Source of the DNA: an uncultured Clostridia bacterium
GTDB lineage: Bacteria; Bacillota; Clostridia; Oscillospirales; Ruminococcaceae
Assembly (NCBI GenBank): GCA_947625735.1
Contig: CANQPL010000004.1
Location: forward strand, 56,681-120,680
DNA: 64,000 nucleotides
Direction of reading: 5' to 3'
Every line of letters starts with the position of its first letter. Positions within the stretch are counted from its first letter, which is position 1. This document shows, piece after piece, positions 1,236 through 62,128 of the stretch. The notes beneath the pieces are model-generated. The model saw only the letters and a program-made list of their open reading frames with translations, did no database searches and was not told where the DNA came from. The position numbers and the translations under genes were made by a program.

Positions 1236-1270
1236 GGCGGCTTGCCCTGTGAACAAGCCGCCTTTTTTTT
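1236..1270 (+). terminator. Intrinsic terminator of mscS
   Basis: Perfect 9-bp stem GGCGGCTTG (1236-1244) with CAAGCCGCC (1254-1262), followed by eight T residues. It touches the 3' end of the convergent lipoprotein gene at 1269. There is no strong T-run on the other strand, so it probably works for mscS only. Confidence 0.9.
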
Positions 1271-3488
1271 ATCCGTAACTTTCCGAAAGATAAATATTTA
1301 CCCTTGACTCAATAAGCCTTGCCGTTTCCTCCGCTGTCTTATTCCCCGCAAAATAAGCAGATGCCTCCTCTTTTACTATATCCCCAACAGTACTGTCGCT
1401 GCGGGAAAGTCTGGAAACCGACATCACAAGCTCATTTATCCTGTCAATATCGGCTGATGCGGGAACGCCTATCTCCCCGACAGATACGGCTTTTGAAACG
1501 GTTATATTTCCTACGCTGATAAGAGAATAATAGAAATCATTTTTGCCAAACTGCATTATCCGCTCCCCGTTTTTCTGAAGTGACGATACCCTTACGGGAA
1601 AATTTTCGGTGCTGTCCTGATATTCGGGGCTGAGCAGCGTCCGCAGAAACTGCCACGCCCCCTCTTTGTTTTCCGATTTTGCGGATAATGCAAAGCCCGA
1701 ATTAGGTCTGATGAGTGAGCCGCTTTCTCCGTTTACAGACGGATATCCCACAGCAGTGACCTCGTCCCCGAAAAACTTTTTTTCGGAGCAGTAAAAATCA
1801 TCGTAGCCGCCTATAAGTGTCTGCATAAGGAGAGTGTTTTCCTGCGAATATGTAATGTCTATATCGGCGAATATGCCTGCATAATCAGGCTCACTATCAT
1901 CTCCGGAGGGAAATCCCGATGCAAATTCAAGCAAGGAAAGAAATTCCTCCGAATTGAAATTGCATTTTCCCGCTTGGTAATCAATAAAAGCATCTCCCCC
2001 GTAATTTATACCGTCAAGAAGCACATCTGCGGCATTTGCACCTAAAAGTATATTCCTGTCGGCAGGACCGCTTTTAAGGATATTGTCAAGGCGCTCATAT
2101 GTAAGCGGCTCGCTTCCGAAAATGTCCGATTTTCCGAGAACTGTGTCTATCATGAACATATCCGTAAAATGGTACAGCTTTCCGTCAGTTTCAAAGGCGG
2201 AGAGAACGTTGGGAAGAAATTTATCCCGTGTCACCTCCGCATCGGTGTCCATAAATGTATACAGATCCGCAAAAAGTCCCTTTGATATATAGCTGTCAAT
2301 ATTCATGCCCGGAGAGGTAATTATAATATCGGGAATATTCCCCGAAAGAATGTCTGTATTAAGAGTCGAAAGATATTCCTCATCGGGATATTTTTTTATT
2401 TTTATGCGGTATTCCTCATTTTCCATGTTAAAACGCACTGCCTGTGTTTCCATGGGAACGGTCACGGCATATTCAGAACCTGAAAGAAGTATCTCCTTTT
2501 TTTCGGGAAGTGATGAGCTGTCCACAGGAAAAATTTCTGTAATGACCGGTCCGCCCGAGGGATAGCTTGTCCCCATGCAGATAAAGCCGCCGTTTTCATC
2601 GGGAAATAATGCGCTTATCTCCGAACGGATAAGGTCGGAATCCACCCAGTTAAGAATTTCCGTAAGCTCCCCGCTGTCGGTATCCAGAGAGTCAAGAGCG
2701 GAGCCGTTGTCCACATATATATCCGTTTCACCGCTGCCGCTGTAGGGCGTGCAGTCATAGGAATTGTAAGAGTCTGTGAGCTTTACGGGTTCCCCCGGCT
2801 CACCTGTCAGAGGGTCTACCTCTTTAATGCAGTACCCGTCCGCATAGACCGTGGCAAATATTTCGCCATCAGGTGTCATCAGAAGTCCCATAAGATTGTC
2901 ATTTCCCATATCGGCTGCAAATATCGTTCCGCCCTCCGGGGTAAAGGCTGCGATCGCCGAGTAATTTCCCACATAGATATTCCCGTCACTGCCGCAGGCA
3001 GTTGCATTTACGGTAAAATAGCCATCCGAAAGCTCACTCACCGCATCGGTAATATCAAGCTCCGAGATAAGCTCCCCCTCGCCCGACAGCTTTTTAAGAA
3101 CTGTTTTCACCTGTCGGGTCTGTGTATCCATAACCGATTCGCCGTATATGATATTTCCCTCGCCGTCAATGGAAAATCCGTCTGCATTTACCGTACCCTC
3201 TGCCAAGTCCTTAACCACAAGACCGCTGCCGTCTGCATTTACGATATTAAGATCAATATCCGCCGTCATATCGTCAGGATATGTAATTGTAGTGAAATAG
3301 ACTCTGCCGCCGTAATACATAAAATTACCCGCTTCTCCCGATGTACCTTCAATGTATGTGCGTTTTCCCCGCCATACCGTTTGTTCCGGAGAGGAAAGAG
3401 GCTGCTCCTTAGGCCGAGTGTCCGCTCCCGTGCAGGCGGTGAGCATTGTCACGCAAAGCAGGAGTGCTGTCATTTTCTTGATATTCAT
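1269..3488 (-). CDS. Large lipoprotein: N-terminal propeller-like region fused to a family 1 solute-binding domain
   Basis: A 739-residue secreted lipoprotein. A signal peptide ends in lipobox LTAC with the modified cysteine at residue 19. Residues about 40-330 are rich in short beta motifs with repeated GNI/DGN/GGT turns, as in YncE or NHL-type propellers. Residues about 340-739 resemble extracellular solute-binding proteins: LNTDILSGNIPDIIIT, then LFADLYTFMDTD, a GAWQFLRTLLSPEYQ helix and a C-terminal helical end. No permease or ATPase genes adjoin it. It is the third gene of an operon after the BlaI-type repressor and M56 peptidase (31 bases after the peptidase stop), so it is probably derepressed with them. 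A paralog of the same architecture lies at 60008-62128. The propeller assignment is inferred from pattern only; ligand unknown. Confidence 0.75.
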   Translation of the reverse strand: MNIKKMTALLLCVTMLTACTGADTRPKEQPLSSPEQTVWRGKRTYIEGTSGEAGNFMYYGGRVYFTTITYPDDMTADIDLNIVNADGSGLVVKDLAEGTVNADGFSIDGEGNIIYGESVMDTQTRQVKTVLKKLSGEGELISELDITDAVSELSDGYFTVNATACGSDGNIYVGNYSAIAAFTPEGGTIFAADMGNDNLMGLLMTPDGEIFATVYADGYCIKEVDPLTGEPGEPVKLTDSYNSYDCTPYSGSGETDIYVDNGSALDSLDTDSGELTEILNWVDSDLIRSEISALFPDENGGFICMGTSYPSGGPVITEIFPVDSSSLPEKKEILLSGSEYAVTVPMETQAVRFNMENEEYRIKIKKYPDEEYLSTLNTDILSGNIPDIIITSPGMNIDSYISKGLFADLYTFMDTDAEVTRDKFLPNVLSAFETDGKLYHFTDMFMIDTVLGKSDIFGSEPLTYERLDNILKSGPADRNILLGANAADVLLDGINYGGDAFIDYQAGKCNFNSEEFLSLLEFASGFPSGDDSEPDYAGIFADIDITYSQENTLLMQTLIGGYDDFYCSEKKFFGDEVTAVGYPSVNGESGSLIRPNSGFALSAKSENKEGAWQFLRTLLSPEYQDSTENFPVRVSSLQKNGERIMQFGKNDFYYSLISVGNITVSKAVSVGEIGVPASADIDRINELVMSVSRLSRSDSTVGDIVKEEASAYFAGNKTAEETARLIESRVNIYLSESYG

Positions 3489-3519
3489 TTCTGTGTTTCC
3501 TTTCTTTAATAAATTGTTC

Positions 3520-5928
3520 TCATGCTCCTGCTAAAATATCCGATACGTATATCTGCAATTGTTCGTTATTTTCCGCCTGTGCAGAGTATAAGCCGATATT
3601 TTGCAGGCTGAAATCTCCCTCCGAGAATATAACATCGGCTGTTACCGTAGGAAAACCGTAGTACAGTGTCATCAGCCCCGGAGAAACGTATAATCTGATA
3701 TTATCCCCCTCTATGCTGTATTCTGTAATGCTGTCAAAGGAGATATCCTCCGCTGTAACGCCGTCGGGATAGCCGTTCAGAAAGAGATCCTCATAATCAG
3801 AGATACTACCCGATACGATAAGGCTCCCCTTATCCTTCAGATCCATGCTGTAACGTATGGTCATGCTTTCGTAATCGGTTTGCACCTCAGTAATGCGGCG
3901 GAAAGCTGCCGTCAGATCTTCATTGTCCGCTTCATAAGCCCTGTAGTGTCCGTCTGCACCGATTTTATAGATAACAAGATCGCTTATGCTTATTCCCGTT
4001 CCCGTGCCGCCGCAGTATATTACCGCAAGCTCCTTTTCGCCGTCACGGTCAAAATCTCCCGTATACATCTCAGGAAATATCAAGCGGGGATTAAGCCATG
4101 TTTTATCAAATACATCGACTGTGCCGTCATGCTCAATGATAACAAGGTTATCCTCATCATTTATATAGCTGTACATACGTATACCGTCCTGCTCACCGTT
4201 AAAAAACAGCGGATAATTTATATCCTCCGACAGCTCATTTTCGTCCCGTGCCGCTTCAAGGTCATAGTGCCGCCTTGGCAGAAGCTCATCACCGCTTACA
4301 AATTCCGCTTTTATATCCTCGCCGAATGTTACCTGCGCATTGTCGTAACCGAAAAGCATTACTGACGGAGTACCCTCATCGGGTATAATAAATTCTGCCC
4401 GCACACTGCTTTTCCTGTCGTCAATGCGGTAAATATCAAAGCCGCTGTCATCGTCCGACTTCAGAATATTTACATTTTTGTCGTTACGGTCGTACTCCTC
4501 GTCAAATACAAATGTCATATTGAGCGTAATACATTTACTGCCGTCAATCTGTGATATTTTCCCGTCATTGATGATTATTTCTTCTACATAATCGGGATCG
4601 TAATAAAGGGATTCATCGGCAGTAATGGTAAATTCGCCGTCCTTTATAACTCCGCCCCCGAATCCGCCGCTGCCGTTTTTGCTGCCCGCCTCACAGAAAA
4701 CCGTGTCAAATTCGGTATATGCGCCGTTTACGCAGTCAAGACCTACCCTTACTTTTGGAGTGTACCCGTATGTGATGTTTATTTCTCCTCCGCTGCTGCC
4801 CGTAATACGTGATGTGCCTTTCCGTGGGGTGTCCTCTGATTCTGCGGCTACGCTCTCCATGACGGGCGCATCTGTTACAAGCTCCCCACTGTTTTCGGGG
4901 GATATTTCATCTGTCATAAGTACACCGCAGGCTGTAAGGACAGCCGCCGCTCCCAAAGCTGTGACGGCAAGTCCCGGCTTTTTATAGGAGAGCGCATTCT
5001 TTATACGCAGAGCGGCGCTTTTTTCTCCGAAAGCAGGCGTGATAAATATTCCGCTTTGCTTCATTGAGGCGGTGAGGAGTGCCATAGAATAGGCTTTTTT
5101 ATTCTCCTCCCCCAGCCGTGCAAGGGTATCTTCATCGCAGGAAAGCTCCATGTCACGTGTCATAAGCGCAAAGGATATCCAGATAAGCGGGTCAAACCAG
5201 TTCACCGACAATCCGATAAATGCTGCCGCCTTTTTAAGCGGATCAAGTCTTTTGATGTGTGTACGCTCGTGTGCTGTTATCAGCCGCTTTTCCTCTTCGG
5301 AAAGTCCCGCAGGAAGATACACCGCCATAGGAAAAAGTCCTGCAAATGCGGTATTTATGCGGTCGCTTTCATATACGCCCTTATCCGTCCGTATCGCCGT
5401 GCTTACTCTTTTCATTAAAGCTGTATAGGAGATAACACCGTAAAGGAGCATTATGACCGCTCCCGTAAGCCATATCGAAAGTACGATCATCTCTGTACTC
5501 ACAGATTCGCTTTCATTTACGGTCAATGAGCTTACATTCTCAGCCGTATTAATTTCAATATCGGCATAGGTAACAGTGACCTCCTGCTCTGCGCCCTGTT
5601 CATGCACGATAACAGGGGGAGCGGTGATGTTTCCCTCAATGCTGTAAAGAGGAACGGGCGGCGTGTCATTTTCGGATACAGTTGTTTCAACCGCTGTTTC
5701 TGCTGTATCGTATGTACCCCGGATCCTCGGCATAAGGTTAAAAATGCTCATGCCGCTTTCTGCGGAAACGGGACAAAGACATCTGAAAAATACCGCCGCC
5801 CACAGTATATACAGGCATTTTCGGGGACAGCGGCGCAAAACACACCTTAACAGTATCACCAATGCCGCAGTGACCGCCGCTGTCAGCCACAGATCGGTCA
5901 TTACGGAAAAAAAGCCCATCACAGTCAT
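3520..5928 (-). CDS. BlaR1/MecR1-type M56 family membrane metallopeptidase with a large extracytoplasmic domain
   Basis: An 802-residue sensor protease, second gene of the operon. N-terminal membrane segments at about 12-30 and 38-54 and another near 148-170 surround the M56 zinc peptidase: HERTH at 220-224 gives the HExxH site and ELSCDED near 261-267 the third ligand region. A further membrane segment (about 318-338) leads to a 460-residue extracytoplasmic domain that is not penicillin-binding-like (no SxxK, SxN and KTG set). It is rich in beta strands and contains an acidic stretch MYTGDFDRDGEKELAVIY that resembles an FG-GAP/EF-type calcium loop. In known BlaR systems the peptidase, once triggered, leads to loss of BlaI repression. 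The start overlaps the repressor stop by ATGA, indicating translational coupling. The signal detected is unknown. Confidence 0.85.
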   Translation of the reverse strand: MTVMGFFSVMTDLWLTAAVTAALVILLRCVLRRCPRKCLYILWAAVFFRCLCPVSAESGMSIFNLMPRIRGTYDTAETAVETTVSENDTPPVPLYSIEGNITAPPVIVHEQGAEQEVTVTYADIEINTAENVSSLTVNESESVSTEMIVLSIWLTGAVIMLLYGVISYTALMKRVSTAIRTDKGVYESDRINTAFAGLFPMAVYLPAGLSEEEKRLITAHERTHIKRLDPLKKAAAFIGLSVNWFDPLIWISFALMTRDMELSCDEDTLARLGEENKKAYSMALLTASMKQSGIFITPAFGEKSAALRIKNALSYKKPGLAVTALGAAAVLTACGVLMTDEISPENSGELVTDAPVMESVAAESEDTPRKGTSRITGSSGGEINITYGYTPKVRVGLDCVNGAYTEFDTVFCEAGSKNGSGGFGGGVIKDGEFTITADESLYYDPDYVEEIIINDGKISQIDGSKCITLNMTFVFDEEYDRNDKNVNILKSDDDSGFDIYRIDDRKSSVRAEFIIPDEGTPSVMLFGYDNAQVTFGEDIKAEFVSGDELLPRRHYDLEAARDENELSEDINYPLFFNGEQDGIRMYSYINDEDNLVIIEHDGTVDVFDKTWLNPRLIFPEMYTGDFDRDGEKELAVIYCGGTGTGISISDLVIYKIGADGHYRAYEADNEDLTAAFRRITEVQTDYESMTIRYSMDLKDKGSLIVSGSISDYEDLFLNGYPDGVTAEDISFDSITEYSIEGDNIRLYVSPGLMTLYYGFPTVTADVIFSEGDFSLQNIGLYSAQAENNEQLQIYVSDILAGA

Positions 5929-6296
5929 TCACCGCTTTCCCCCGTGCTTTGGTCGATAAGCGCTTTAAGCCGCTCTGCCTCCTCGGGCGTAAGCCTCCTG
6001 CCGTCCAGAAAAGCGGCTATAAATGCGGGCAGAGAGCCGCCAAAACTCTTTTCTACCACCGCTTCACTTTCATACTTTGCCACACATTCACGCTTTACAA
6101 GGGAGGTGACAATGCTTTTATCATTTTTTACAAAACCCCTGTCAGAGAGCTTTCGTATCATATTGAACACCGTTGACTTCTTCCAGCCCAGCTTATCAAG
6201 GCATATTCTCGAAAGCTCCGTGGATTTGACAGGTTCATTTTCCCATATCACCGATAAAAATTTGTACTCCGCATCAAACAGCTTGTATTCTTCCAT
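5925..6296 (-). CDS. BlaI/MecI/CopY family transcriptional repressor
   Basis: A winged-helix repressor of 123 residues; first gene of the BlaI - M56 - lipoprotein operon. The sequence LFDAEYKFLSVIWENEPVKS opens the family winged helix, followed by KKSTVFNMIRKLSDRGFV (recognition helix region) and a C-terminal helical dimerisation part with FLDGRRLTPEEAERL. The ORF track starts earlier, but those codons run through the promoter and operator. An AAAGGAG lies 10 bases before the ATG at 6296 and only 1 base before the alternative ATG at 6305, so 6296 is preferred. It probably binds the three 18-bp sites just upstream and represses its own operon until the M56 protease responds. Confidence 0.9.
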   Translation of the reverse strand: MEEYKLFDAEYKFLSVIWENEPVKSTELSRICLDKLGWKKSTVFNMIRKLSDRGFVKNDKSIVTSLVKRECVAKYESEAVVEKSFGGSLPAFIAAFLDGRRLTPEEAERLKALIDQSTGESGE

Positions 6297-6320: not shown

Positions 6321-6338
6321 GGTTTGTCGTAATAAACC
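6321..6338. promoter_or_regulatory. Operator copy 1 for the BlaI-type repressor
   Basis: GGTTTGTCGTAATAAACC, an imperfect dyad between the start site region and the repressor ribosome site. It is 16/18 identical to copy 2 read on the other strand and 16/18 identical to copy 3 read on the other strand. Confidence 0.75.
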
Positions 6339-6352
6339 TTTGTTATATAATA

Positions 6353-6381
6353 AGTTTATCACGACAAACCTCATATGTCAA
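6353..6381 (-). promoter_or_regulatory. Promoter of the BlaI-M56-lipoprotein operon with embedded operator copy 2
   Basis: On the minus strand TTGACA (6381-6376), a 17-base spacer and TAAACT (6358-6353) form the promoter. The operator AGTTTATCACGACAAACC (6353-6370, plus strand) covers the spacer and -10, the expected position for a repressor that excludes RNA polymerase. Confidence 0.8.
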
Positions 6382-6415
6382 TAAGCATATCAGACAAAAT
6401 TAAGGTGATTTTATT

Positions 6416-6433
6416 GGTTTATTGCAACAAACC
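6416..6433. promoter_or_regulatory. Operator copy 3 for the BlaI-type repressor
   Basis: GGTTTATTGCAACAAACC, the most symmetric of the three copies, lying about 35 bases upstream of the -35 element. The three sites give a consensus of GGTTTATYRCRACAAACC. Confidence 0.7.
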
Positions 6434-6545: not shown

Positions 6546-6597
6546 TTGACAAACAGAATATAATATGTTATCATATGAACAGATGAACATATGAATT
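6546..6597 (+). promoter_or_regulatory. Promoter and ArsR-type operator of the metal-efflux operon
   Basis: TTGACA (6546-6551), 17 bases, TATCAT (6569-6574). Overlapping and following the -10 is an ATATGAAC / ATGAACATATGAAT repeat (about 6572-6597), which resembles the ATATGAAC-containing 12-2-12 operators of SmtB/CzrA/CadC regulators. About 120 bases of leader precede the first gene. Confidence 0.75.
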
Positions 6598-6712: not shown

Positions 6713-7063
6713 ATGCCCGAAAATCATGAAGATTTTCTCTGTGTACGTGAGGACGTGGTGGAAAGCGTAATGGCACAGATGCCCCCGGACGAGATACTCT
6801 ATGATCTTGCCGAGCTTTTTAAGGTGTTCGGCGATACCACAAGGATACGCATACTTTACGCCCTGTTTGAATCGGAGCTTTGCGTAAATGATATGGCGCA
6901 GCTTCTGGGACTTTCTCAGACAGCTGTTTCTCATCAGCTGAGGGTCCTCAAAAACAATAAGCTGGTGAAATTCCGCAAGGAGGGGAAAATAATATTCTAC
7001 TCCCTTTCCGATGACCATGTGAAAAGCCTGATAGAAACAGGAATGGAACACGTTGAAGAATAA
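6713..7063 (+). CDS. ArsR/SmtB family metal-sensing repressor (CzrA/SmtB-like)
   Basis: A 116-residue winged-helix repressor. ELCVNDMAQLLGLSQTAVSH and QLRVLKNNKLVKFRKEGK make the helix-turn-helix and wing. The C-terminal helix carries D-x-H-x10-H-x2-E (DDHV...EHVEE), which fits the alpha-5 zinc/cobalt site of CzrA and SmtB with the last ligand as Glu. The alpha-3 cysteine motif of cadmium/lead sensors (ELCVCD) is reduced to ELCVND, so zinc or cobalt sensing is more likely than a cadmium CadC-type response. It starts at ATG 6713 with an AAAGGAGG site and leads an operon with the HMA protein and the P-type ATPase. Confidence 0.92.
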   Translation: MPENHEDFLCVREDVVESVMAQMPPDEILYDLAELFKVFGDTTRIRILYALFESELCVNDMAQLLGLSQTAVSHQLRVLKNNKLVKFRKEGKIIFYSLSDDHVKSLIETGMEHVEE

Positions 7064-7088
7064 AAATAAAAAAAAGGAGTTTTGTTTT

Positions 7089-7307
7089 ATGAAAAAGGTA
7101 TTTGATCTTATTGATCTGGACTGCGCTAACTGCGCCCGTAAAATGGAGGACGCCATAAAGAAAATAGACGGAGTGGAATCCGCCACTGTCAGCTTTATGA
7201 CACAAAAGCTCACCATTACCGCCGATGATGCACGCTTTGACGAGATAATGAAAAAGGCTGCCGCTGCCTGCAAAAAGGTAGAACCCGACTGCCGCATCGC
7301 CATGTAA
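7089..7307 (+). CDS. Free-standing heavy-metal-associated (HMA) domain protein, metallochaperone-like
   Basis: A 72-residue ferredoxin-like HMA protein with metal-binding DCANCARKME (CxxC) near the N-terminus, the usual position after the first strand. The ATG at 7089 has a GGAG nine bases upstream; the longer ORF from 7053 overlaps the arsR-type gene and lacks a ribosome site. It stops 7 bases before the P-type ATPase, which has no N-terminal HMA domain of its own. The protein therefore probably serves as the detached metal-binding domain or chaperone of that pump. Asp before the CxxC is common in Zn/Cd-type HMA domains. Confidence 0.85.
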   Translation: MKKVFDLIDLDCANCARKMEDAIKKIDGVESATVSFMTQKLTITADDARFDEIMKKAAAACKKVEPDCRIAM

Positions 7308-7314
7308 CACCGCT

Positions 7315-9192
7315 ATGACACGCAAACAGAAAAAAATGCTGGCAAGGATCATAGTTACATTTGTGATCCTTGCCGCCGAAATGATTTTTTTTAAGGTCGC
7401 CGATGTAAAATGGGGCTATGGGGAGCTTGTCTGCTATCTTGTACCCTACTTCATAATCGGATATGACATTCTGCGCAAAGCTGCTCTCAATATCCTGCAC
7501 GGTCAGGTGTTTGACGAGAATTTTCTTATGACTATCGCCACTGTGGGAGCATTCTTTACGGGTGAATATTCCGAGGGTACAGCGGTAATGCTCTTTTATC
7601 AGGTGGGAGAGCTTTTCCAGTCCTATGCAGTGAACAAGTCACGGCGTTCTATTGCAGAGCTTATGGATATACGTCCTGATTATGCCAACATTGAGGACGA
7701 AAAGGGCGATCTCGTACAGGTTGACCCCGAAACAATAAACACGGGCGATATTATCGTTATAAAGCCCGGGGAAAAGATCCCCCTTGACGGCATAGTCACC
7801 GAGGGCAGCTCCTCTGCGGACACCTCCGCTCTTACGGGTGAATCCGTTCCCCGTTCGGTAAGCGCAGGCTCAGACGTTATAAGCGGCTGCATAAATCTCA
7901 GCGGTACTCTGCGTGTACGGGTTACAAAACCCTTCGGACAGTCTACAGTATCAAAAATACTTGAGCTTGTGGAAAACTCCGCCGAGAAAAAATCAAAAAG
8001 TGAAAATTTCATATCAAAATTTGCAAGGGTTTACACTCCTGCTGTGGTAATAGGCGCTTGTCTGCTTGCAATTCTCCCTCCTTTAATAACGGGAGAACCT
8101 TTCGGCGGCTGGGTGCATCGTGCAATGACATTTCTTGTAATTTCATGCCCCTGCGCACTGGTTATATCCATACCTCTGAGCTTTTTCTGCTCAATTGGCG
8201 GCGCATCACGTGAGGGTGTGCTTATCAAGGGCGGAAATTATATTGAGGCTCTTGCCGATGCGGGAATAATGGTATTTGACAAAACGGGAACGCTGACAGA
8301 AGGTACATTTGAGGTCACCGATGTATGTCCTGTTAATACCGATAAGGATACACTTATTATGACAGCCGCTCTTGCAGAGTGCTATTCCGATCACCCTATT
8401 GCGGCATCATTAAAACGTGCCTGCAAAACAAAGCCCGATCCCTCACGGGTTCAAAACGTTCACGAAATAGCGGGAAAGGGTGTTTCAGCACAGGTGGACG
8501 GGAAAATCACTCTTGCGGGAAATCTCAGACTTCTTGAAGGTGAGGGCATATCCGTTCCCGAAGCTGATAAAAGCTGCGGACACATCGGAACTGCCGTACA
8601 CGTTGCCGTAAACGGCGTATACATGGGACATATCATCATTTCCGACAAGGTAAAGCCGGGAGCGGGAGAAACTGTTTTGGCTCTTAAAGAACTGGGTATC
8701 CGCAAAACGGTCATGCTCACAGGCGACATGAAAGCGGCAGGAGAAGCAGTCGCCAAAAAGTTGGGACTTGATGAGTGCCGTACCGAGCTGCTCCCCGCCG
8801 ATAAGGTCGGGGAGGTGGAAACTCTTATAAATGAAAAGCAGGCAAAGGAAACGCTTGTGTTTGTGGGAGACGGTATAAATGATGCTCCCGTGCTTACCCG
8901 TGCCGATGTGGGAATTGCTATGGGGGGCATAGGCTCCGATGCCGCCATAGAAGCTGCGGATATCGTTCTTATGGACGATAAGCCCGAAAAGATCGTATTT
9001 GCCGTAAAGCTGTCCCGCAGGACGATGCAGATAGTAAAGCAGAATATTGTTTTTGCACTGGGTGTAAAGCTCATAACCCTGATACTCGGCGCACTGGGAC
9101 TTGCGGGAATGTGGGCGGCAGTTTTTGCAGATGTGGGAGTTTCTGTAATTGCCATTTTAAATGCCATGCGCACGGGAAAATTCAAAGCATAA
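7315..9192 (+). CDS. cadA: Cd2+/Zn2+-exporting P1B-type ATPase lacking an N-terminal HMA domain
   Basis: A 625-residue membrane ATPase that exports divalent soft metals using ATP. The P1B hallmarks are present in order: paired N-terminal membrane helices, the SALTGESVP-type actuator motif (TSALTGESVPRSV), SCPCAL in the transport helix (near residue 278), the phosphorylated Asp in DKTGTLT (near 322), the SDHPIAAS HP motif and GDGINDAP. The last helix contains FADVGVSVIAILNA, whose Asp fits the Zn/Cd subgroup. The copper subgroup would show different final helices. It is translated from ATG 7315, 7 bases after the HMA gene, and is regulated by the ArsR-type protein at the head of the operon. 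Confidence 0.93.
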   Translation: MTRKQKKMLARIIVTFVILAAEMIFFKVADVKWGYGELVCYLVPYFIIGYDILRKAALNILHGQVFDENFLMTIATVGAFFTGEYSEGTAVMLFYQVGELFQSYAVNKSRRSIAELMDIRPDYANIEDEKGDLVQVDPETINTGDIIVIKPGEKIPLDGIVTEGSSSADTSALTGESVPRSVSAGSDVISGCINLSGTLRVRVTKPFGQSTVSKILELVENSAEKKSKSENFISKFARVYTPAVVIGACLLAILPPLITGEPFGGWVHRAMTFLVISCPCALVISIPLSFFCSIGGASREGVLIKGGNYIEALADAGIMVFDKTGTLTEGTFEVTDVCPVNTDKDTLIMTAALAECYSDHPIAASLKRACKTKPDPSRVQNVHEIAGKGVSAQVDGKITLAGNLRLLEGEGISVPEADKSCGHIGTAVHVAVNGVYMGHIIISDKVKPGAGETVLALKELGIRKTVMLTGDMKAAGEAVAKKLGLDECRTELLPADKVGEVETLINEKQAKETLVFVGDGINDAPVLTRADVGIAMGGIGSDAAIEAADIVLMDDKPEKIVFAVKLSRRTMQIVKQNIVFALGVKLITLILGALGLAGMWAAVFADVGVSVIAILNAMRTGKFKA

Positions 9193-60007: not shown

Positions 60008-62128
60008 TTAATTTCTTTCACTGAACGCTATACCTGCCCTGCCCTGAATATTTTTCGCCGCATTGTCCGCAGAGGTATCCCCCGCAAAAAACATATCCGT
60101 TTCTTCATTTACAATATTCAGTATCTCATCATCATATCTTATTTTGACGGAATTATTTATCATTTCCGTTATATGATCGTAATCGCTTTTTTCAATAAGT
60201 CTTACGGGAACATTATTAAACATAAACTGATAGGCTTCGTCACCGTTTTCCTCTTTGATAAGACGGTTGCTTTCAAGAACAGCATTCATATTTTTATCAA
60301 AAAGCAATTTTAATACCGGTATCCCCATAGAAAAGCTGCCTGCCCTGTTGTACTGATTATAATTCAGATAGAATTTTATAAAATCCCATGCAGCGGATTT
60401 ATTTTCCGAAAAAGAATTAAGATAAATCGCATCACCGCTCAGAACATGAATTTTTTTGCCGTCAATTCTCGGTACCCCTATAGGGTGAAGATCAAGTACC
60501 TCTTCATAAGCAGCAAGCTCCTCCGCACCGTGTATCGTTATTGGCTGAATCTTCATCGGCACATCGTCAGACAGGGTATCACTTTTGGTGTCGGGAATAT
60601 TTACATCCCGGGAAAAATTCATAAGCATACGCAAATTTTCATTATCAAAATCACATTTTACAGTATTATAATCAGTAAAGCAGTCAAAGTTATACCTGAC
60701 CAATTCATTCATAAAATCGGTTCTTGAATTAAAATTATTTATCAGAATATCATTCTGTACCTTTTCCGAATCAAGACGTGTTATGTCAAATGAATCATAA
60801 TTTCTGCAATATCCTGAATTTGCAGCGTATGTCAGAATAGCAAAATCAGCCCACATACCGTATAATTTTCCGTCAGTTTCCATAGCGGAAAGTGCTGCTT
60901 CAAAAAAATCATCACGGCTTATATCTTCATCACTGTCAATAAATCCATACAGATCCTCAAAAAGTCCCGCATTATAAACATTTTTTATTCCTGACGGGAA
61001 AATAAGAATATCTCCCAATTCATCACCGCTGATGAGCTTTCTGTCAAAGGAGTCAATAAGATCACCCTTTTCATTTTCATCAAGATATTCAAATTCAATA
61101 ACATGATCCTTACTGCTTCTGTTATATGCAAAAACCGCTTTCTCAAAATTATTTCCCACATCATCTGAAACAGTTATGGTTATTTTTGTACGCTCATTTA
61201 ATTTCTCTGTCGGAATAAATTCTAACCGTGAAAGAGAACCCACTTCCCCGTTTTCAAAGTCAAAAAATAATATCCTTCCGTTTTCATCTGAAAATACACT
61301 GTTAAGCGAATATTCCGTAAGTCCCATATCGGATAGGCTTGCAATAACATTAAATTTTCCGTCTGCATTTATTCCGTAAATATAAATATTATCAGCCGCA
61401 TATAAAATATTGTCCCCGTATCCGCCGAAAACGGTATGCCCGTTGAAATCCGACGGAAATTCAACGGTATCTGCAAACTCTATTTTCTCTGTGTCGATTT
61501 TTTTCAGTGAATCATACATCACCGCATATAAAGCGCCGTCTGCACCGATAATAAGCTGATTTATAATATCCTCGGATTCAATTTTACCGCATAATTCGAG
61601 TGAATCATTGAGCTTGAATTTATATATGCAAAAGCTGTTATAAAGATAAATTTCCCCATTATAATATTCTGCTCTGCAAAAATCACCAAGTTTTTCGTTT
61701 ATGTCATATTTTTCAAAGCTGTGTCCGTTTATATCATATATCAGGAGTGAATAACCCTTTTCATTACCTCCCGAAAGCAGCACAATATTTCCCTCATCAT
61801 TTACAAAAAGGGACGAAATACCCTCCCCGGGAAATGGTATATCCACATCATCGGAAATATTCCAGATCATTTCCGAACTGCCGTTGGAGGTATCCGTAAG
61901 CATAAGATAATAATTATGCTCCTTGACATATGAAGCATAGAGCTTTCCGTTTCCGTTGTAGTATGAAGCCGATATTGAGCCGCCTTTCGGTGACAGCTCC
62001 ACCGTTTCTATATTACAGCCGTACGGTGTTTTCTTTGTTGTATTTTCAGCCTGATCTTTTTTTTCACAGCCTGAAAAAACAAATGCAGCCGCTAACAATA
62101 AGATCATAAATTTATAGAAAATCTTCAT
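60008..62128 (-). CDS. Second propeller/solute-binding lipoprotein, paralog of the 1269-3488 gene
   Basis: 706 residues with lipobox FSGC (Cys21). The N-terminal part (about 40-320) has short beta motifs like DEGNIVLLSGGNEKGYSLLIYD. The C-terminal SBP part contains LFEDLYGFIDSDEDISRDDFF and ALSAMETDGKLYGMWADF, which match LFADLYTFMDTD and NVLSAFETDGKLYHF in the paralog. It ends with NAAKNIQGRAGIAFSE (paralog: EETARLIESRVNIYLSE). It stands alone; no BlaI-type gene or GGTTT...AAACC operator is seen upstream. Its function is unknown, but two copies of this unusual design suggest a family of sensors or scavengers. Confidence 0.75.
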   Translation of the reverse strand: MKIFYKFMILLLAAAFVFSGCEKKDQAENTTKKTPYGCNIETVELSPKGGSISASYYNGNGKLYASYVKEHNYYLMLTDTSNGSSEMIWNISDDVDIPFPGEGISSLFVNDEGNIVLLSGGNEKGYSLLIYDINGHSFEKYDINEKLGDFCRAEYYNGEIYLYNSFCIYKFKLNDSLELCGKIESEDIINQLIIGADGALYAVMYDSLKKIDTEKIEFADTVEFPSDFNGHTVFGGYGDNILYAADNIYIYGINADGKFNVIASLSDMGLTEYSLNSVFSDENGRILFFDFENGEVGSLSRLEFIPTEKLNERTKITITVSDDVGNNFEKAVFAYNRSSKDHVIEFEYLDENEKGDLIDSFDRKLISGDELGDILIFPSGIKNVYNAGLFEDLYGFIDSDEDISRDDFFEAALSAMETDGKLYGMWADFAILTYAANSGYCRNYDSFDITRLDSEKVQNDILINNFNSRTDFMNELVRYNFDCFTDYNTVKCDFDNENLRMLMNFSRDVNIPDTKSDTLSDDVPMKIQPITIHGAEELAAYEEVLDLHPIGVPRIDGKKIHVLSGDAIYLNSFSENKSAAWDFIKFYLNYNQYNRAGSFSMGIPVLKLLFDKNMNAVLESNRLIKEENGDEAYQFMFNNVPVRLIEKSDYDHITEMINNSVKIRYDDEILNIVNEETDMFFAGDTSADNAAKNIQGRAGIAFSERN

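Follow-up and report, generated by a model that had tools for sequence, protein, structure and literature searches.

The analysed DNA (64,000 nucleotides, referred to here as the window) carries on its minus strand three genes that form one operon, encoding a BlaI/MecI-type repressor, a BlaR1-type M56 membrane peptidase and a lipoprotein. The genes and the control elements in front of them are:

5925..6296, minus strand: blaI/mecI-type repressor gene, 123 aa (Pfam Penicillinase_R 7e-19; alignment with solved MecI/BlaI)
3520..5928, minus strand: M56 (BlaR1-type) membrane peptidase gene, 802 aa (Pfam Peptidase_M56 1.7e-36, residues 13-293 only)
1269..3488, minus strand: lipoprotein gene, 739 aa, propeller plus solute-binding protein (SBP) (SBP_bac_8 1e-12, residues 350-624)
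6353..6381, minus strand: sigma-70-type operon promoter TTGACA-17-TAAACT (consensus scan, 10/12)
6321..6338, no strand: operator 1, GGTTTGTCGTAATAAACC, between promoter and start codon
6353..6370, no strand: operator 2, AGTTTATCACGACAAACC, overlapping the promoter
6416..6433, no strand: operator 3, GGTTTATTGCAACAAACC, upstream of the promoter

The repressor and peptidase genes overlap by 4 bases (ATGA), and the stop codon of the peptidase gene is followed by a gap of 31 bases before the lipoprotein gene, in which a scan found neither a terminator-like nor a promoter-like site. The three genes are thus predicted to be transcribed together, in agreement with an earlier reading of this DNA from its letters alone (the sequence-only reading). 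Starting from the ATG at 6296 the repressor has 123 aa, and the open frame reaches to 6374. The operon is adjoined by divergent genes on the plus strand (window 6713-9192) for an ArsR-type regulator, a heavy-metal-associated domain protein and a P-type metal ATPase, with a promoter at 6546 that lies apart from the BlaI operators.

Repressor, operators and receptor

The winged-helix Penicillinase_R domain of the repressor scored 68.7 bits against a curated cut-off of 22.6, and the protein is a member of the BlaI/MecI superfamily. In the alignment with solved MecI and BlaI, its Phe96 falls on Phe102 of MecI; in the S. aureus system this is the P1' position of the cleavage site, where the residue is almost invariant (PMC9834060).

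The operon promoter is covered by three palindromes (6321-6433), each 18 bp long and of the form GGTTTRTYRYRAYAAACC, which are predicted, from the sequence, to be the BlaI sites. Many other blaI genes of the order have related palindromes in front of them, at a level above that of shuffled sequence, which supports a role of the palindromes as BlaI operators. Elsewhere in the 3.0-Mb genome, 0 further sites were found at up to one mismatch and four at two mismatches, and the reversed operator pattern, which served as a control, had 0 sites in the genome. The predicted regulon is thus the window operon alone, in an assembly that is about 94% complete and could therefore still hide an operator elsewhere. 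The palindromes had not been mentioned in the sequence-only reading.

Further features belong to the receptor:

5257..5271, minus strand: zinc-binding HERTH motif, M56 residues 220-224 (third ligand region E261...D265)
3523..4911, minus strand: M56 outer (extracellular) domain, about residues 340-802, about 460 aa
4030..4056, minus strand: FG-GAP-like calcium-loop motif DFDRDGEKE, M56 residues 625-633 (regular-expression match)

This protein, one of four encoded by M56 genes in the window's genome, is a member of the M56 superfamily with four hydrophobic (TM) segments (residues 9-27, 38-56, 148-166 and 320-338), and its HERTH zinc site (H, E, H) and E261...D265 are invariant across 13 aligned M56 proteins. 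Conservation of the catalytic residues, together with that of the Phe at P1' of the site where BlaI would be cleaved, makes it probable by homology that the repressor is removed by proteolysis, as had been proposed.

The outer domain is, by sequence comparison, an orphan. It matched no Pfam family, no full-length homologue came from 394 genomes of the order or from the remaining 19 of the genus, and orthologue searches with it gave local matches only, chiefly to the FG-GAP-like stretch. Homology to the window lipoprotein was tested and not found, and a structure model (two-row alignment) was uninformative, with a mean pLDDT of 29. The FG-GAP-like loop that had been pointed out earlier is real, and it is not unusual, because similar loops are present in several other M56 outer domains. 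Likewise, the claim that the outer domain lacks penicillin-binding motifs held: a motif search past residue 338 gave no hit to S..K or to [KH][TS]G, so that the acylated-serine chemistry of BlaR1 would not be expected there. On these motifs, penicillin sensing by the window M56 protein was considered and rejected.

The lipoprotein and its candidate permease partner

The lipoprotein is composed of the following parts:

3432..3443, minus strand: lipobox LTAC with the lipidated Cys19 (invariant in 15 relatives)
2514..3326, minus strand: beta-propeller-like domain, about residues 55-325 (weak NHL-propeller profile match, E 0.007)
1272..2471, minus strand: solute-binding domain, about residues 340-739 (SBP_bac_8; CbpC profile match)

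A family profile built from the 15 relatives matches the solved SBP CbpC (7x0o) at 1.6e-27, and the solute-binding part of the earlier description as a propeller/SBP lipoprotein therefore stands. The propeller part is weakly backed by the NHL profile match and by Foldseek, which returned mostly propellers for a low-confidence model that is poor overall and best at the strand-rich residues 110-230 (pLDDT about 60-77). In one study, none of the sugars tried was bound by CbpC, the closest solved SBP (PMC9601137). The window's genome encodes several paralogues of the lipoprotein, one of them, a shorter propeller-SBP protein (706 aa, 27% identical), in the window itself (60008-62128, minus strand), with no BlaI or M56 gene nearby. 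The genomes G105 and G240 (genus g87) each encode dozens of paralogous lipoproteins of the propeller-SBP or SBP kind, a large lineage-specific expansion. No relatives of the lipoprotein were found in viral contigs.

The window operon contains no permease gene. In relatives, paralogues of the window lipoprotein adjoin two permeases and an HlyD-like protein (L082-L084), and the window's genome encodes at G000:C1:49152-54009 two BPD_transp_1 permeases, an HlyD-like protein and a MacB_PCD protein with no SBP beside them, in an operon that carries no BlaI operator. As this permease set has no adjacent SBP, the scattered lipoproteins of the genome may share it as one permease core. It should be noted that two importer-type permeases with an HlyD-like protein, and in several cases MacB_PCD, form a recurring set (L253 4153-9010 (G000:C1), L082, L083, L084, L164, L237, L238), usually beside an SBP; no ATPase gene was seen beside it, and importer parts are mixed in it with MacAB-like parts.

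Distribution of the trio and of M56 proteins fused to an SBP

The combination of BlaI, M56 and lipoprotein, for which the sequence-only reading had proposed a search in related genomes, was found in 0/19 other genomes of the genus (20 with the window's), many of the comparison genomes being drafts and several of their contigs short. The closest relatives of the lipoprotein (G008, G007 and G009) have no BlaI, M56 or operator nearby, on contigs some of which are short, and a scan of genome contigs revealed one M56 gene, in another context (L085). Gene calls in relatives were mechanical open reading frames, checked against home-made profiles and, for key genes, against Pfam. Among about 100 M56 loci examined, nearly all have an adjacent blaI gene and few have downstream lipoproteins, and an SBP lipoprotein directly after an SBP-less M56 gene is confined to the window.

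M56 outer domains are, on the family matches obtained, a varied sensor repertoire. The transpeptidase domain was found in 0/96 outer domains, M23 peptidases in 5/96, Big_14 in 6/96 and SBP families, at the threshold used, in 3/96, frequencies that are not unbiased because the 96 domains were largely picked by similarity to the window's M56; LRR_5, PASTA, endopeptidase-inhibitor, lipocalin-like and other domains occurred singly. At four loci (L067, L096, L097 and L164) the outer domain is homologous to an adjacent lipoprotein. L067 (1475-8027, G000:C22) is a second BlaI-M56 operon of the window's genome, with three downstream lipoproteins; the third showed homology to the outer domain of the M56 protein (E 5e-8), and L200 (10761-12722 onward) contains a similar operon with three lipoproteins. 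At L097 (319-6076), the adjacent M56 protein has a very long outer domain, and a gene upstream of blaI encodes a lipoprotein homologous to that domain (phmmer E 4e-57).

An SBP forms the outer domain of M56 proteins in four genomes from three genera (G105, G160, G169 and G223), and three of the four fusions are housed in ABC-transporter operons. In G105 (L096), blaI is followed by a gene for a 1041-aa M56::propeller::SBP protein and by one for a lipoprotein related to the receptor's propeller. The G160 operon (L164) encodes BlaI, M56::SBP, a free SBP lipoprotein that is 68% identical to the outer domain of the receptor, two permeases and, judged by eye, an HlyD-like protein. G169 (L237) and G223 (L238) represent two species of one genus, in which the operon of the fusion also contains blaI, two permease genes and an HlyD-like gene (by eye), joined in G223 by a MacB_PCD gene. 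Neither genome has a match to the SBP of the fusion other than the fusion itself; no second SBP was seen in the G223 operon, and the L237 operon ends at the contig end, so that a downstream SBP could lie out of view there.

On a tree of 93 M56 domains the fusions need 3 changes, that is, three separate origins, and a single clade of fusions was rejected (AU p 5.5e-7). The M56::SBP pairing thus arose repeatedly, with at least three independent origins indicated by the tree, and the window's pairing, in trans, is another separate event, the fourth. Since proteins that are fused to each other usually act together, this repeated joining of SBP and M56 is a strong indication that solutes can drive M56 receptors. 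The four fusions lend strong comparative support to the general idea of the earlier reading that a solute-binding module, there the lipoprotein capturing a surface ligand, feeds the receptor. No report of SBP-bearing BlaR1 proteins was found in the open-access literature searched.

Interpretation and comparison with known systems

We lean, by a modest degree of confidence, towards the interpretation that the operon encodes a BlaR1-type proteolytic receptor that responds to a solute, not to a beta-lactam, and induces a solute-binding lipoprotein. Dimers of BlaI would bind the three operators and keep their own operon repressed. When a signal, either the solute directly or the solute loaded on the lipoprotein, reaches the outer face of the M56 protein, the cytoplasmic zinc protease would be activated and would cut BlaI, most likely between Ala95 and Phe96, thereby lifting repression. 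The output would be more receptor and, above all, more solute-binding lipoprotein, which would probably serve the permease core on C1. Several findings count against this solute-receptor interpretation: among the 20 genomes of the genus the trio is restricted to the window's species, the outer domain is neither an SBP nor a homologue of the lipoprotein, the operon lacks a permease while the C1 permease operon lacks an operator, and CbpC bound none of the sugars tried.

The role of the lipoprotein could be more direct. In a split receptor, the solute-loaded lipoprotein would dock on the M56 outer domain and switch the protease on, as CuaD does for CuaS, and it would be both input and output, generating positive feedback. 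This overlaps with the solute-receptor interpretation and is put forward tentatively, as something that may well not apply: the predicted co-transcription of the two genes, the cis fusion of SBP or propeller-SBP modules to M56 in four genomes and the existence of three-component systems of SBP and kinase (PMC10384115) argue for docking, whereas the window M56 protein keeps an outer domain of its own, of about 460 aa and unlike the lipoprotein, and the pair of M56 and lipoprotein occurs once. If, instead, the outer domain itself sensed cell-wall damage or a peptide, the lipoprotein would be a protective or decoy surface protein. Such a sensor of envelope stress or antibiotics would be in line with the characterised BlaR1/MecR1 systems, which answer beta-lactams, with involvement of a muropeptide in B. 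licheniformis (PMC9834060, PMC3305447), and with the M23 peptidases and the single PASTA and endopeptidase-inhibitor domains among the related outer domains. It is nevertheless unlikely, as the window M56 protein has no penicillin-binding motif, none of the 96 outer domains has a transpeptidase, the product of the operon is an SBP, and three of the four SBP fusions lie in transporter operons.

Finally, the lipoprotein might be a chance neighbour, that is, a propeller-SBP paralogue gained downstream of an orphan BlaI-M56 pair and functionally unconnected with it. The restriction of the trio to one species, the nearest relatives of the lipoprotein, which lack BlaI/M56 and the operator, and the lack of a downstream lipoprotein in most BlaI-M56 pairs all fit such an accident, but the 31-base gap without a terminator, the three operators upstream, the lack of any other operator in the genome and the recurrence of independent M56-SBP pairings elsewhere make it quite improbable.

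Beyond the window, one may envisage that the BlaR1 protease underlies a class of receptors for nutrients. In these, the SBP of a transporter, fused to M56 or in trans, would report its ligand by triggering the destruction of BlaI and would thereby induce the transporter, and some of the receptors might be the transporter's only SBP. We give this generalization a little less than an even chance. The wiring of the window operon and the repeated SBP fusions in transporter operons of relatives suggest that the machinery of an 'antibiotic sensor' is also used for sensing food molecules. BlaR1 is an antibiotic sensor in the literature searched, and this order of gut bacteria has many BlaI-M56 pairs with very diverse outer domains. 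Where an outer domain is a copy of the binding protein encoded in its operon, it would hint directly at the signal of the receptor, and BlaR1 would become a general design for plug-in receptors, of use also in building biosensors. The findings also speak against annotating such BlaI-M56 genes as regulators of beta-lactam resistance.

With BlaR1-BlaI and MecR1-MecI of Staphylococcus aureus and Bacillus licheniformis the window system has in common the pair of repressor and peptidase, the four TM segments, the HExxH zinc protease with E...D, the P1' Phe of the repressor and palindromic operators at the operon's own promoter, for which the core is TACA/TGTA in the known systems and the form is GGTTTRTYRYRAYAAACC in the window; it is by inference that the system works like BlaR1. 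Unlike BlaR1 and MecR1, however, the window receptor has an outer domain without the SxxK and KTG that, with SxN, mark a penicillin-binding domain, and its operon has a solute-binding lipoprotein as output in place of a beta-lactamase or PBP2a. The blaR1 model matched the peptidase part of the window M56 protein alone, at 58 bits against a cut-off of 400. The search for a penicillin-binding domain found none, and there was no resistance target either (no beta-lactamase and no resistant PBP in the operon, no second operator in the genome at up to one mismatch); the window receptor is therefore, on its domain and gene content, not a BlaR1/MecR1 beta-lactam sensor.

The CuaD-CuaS-CuaR system, in which contact between CuaD and CuaS has been shown, establishes the design of an SBP that signals together with a histidine kinase (PMC10384115). 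There, as in the window, genes for a solute-binding lipoprotein, a membrane receptor and a transcription regulator stand together, the latter two proteins being a histidine kinase and a response regulator in that system and an M56 protease and BlaI in the window. The C-terminal half of the window lipoprotein resembles the carbohydrate-type SBPs of ABC transporters (SBP_bac_1/8; CbpC 7x0o, Lmo0181 5f7v), from which the protein differs by its additional N-terminal propeller-like domain and its operon by the lack of a permease. A further parallel is offered by the fusions L096, L164, L237 and L238, three of which share the same transporter type: as in the window, the BlaI-M56 chassis is coupled to an SBP of the same superfamily, in cis in the fusions and in trans in the window, on M56 parts that belong to different clades.
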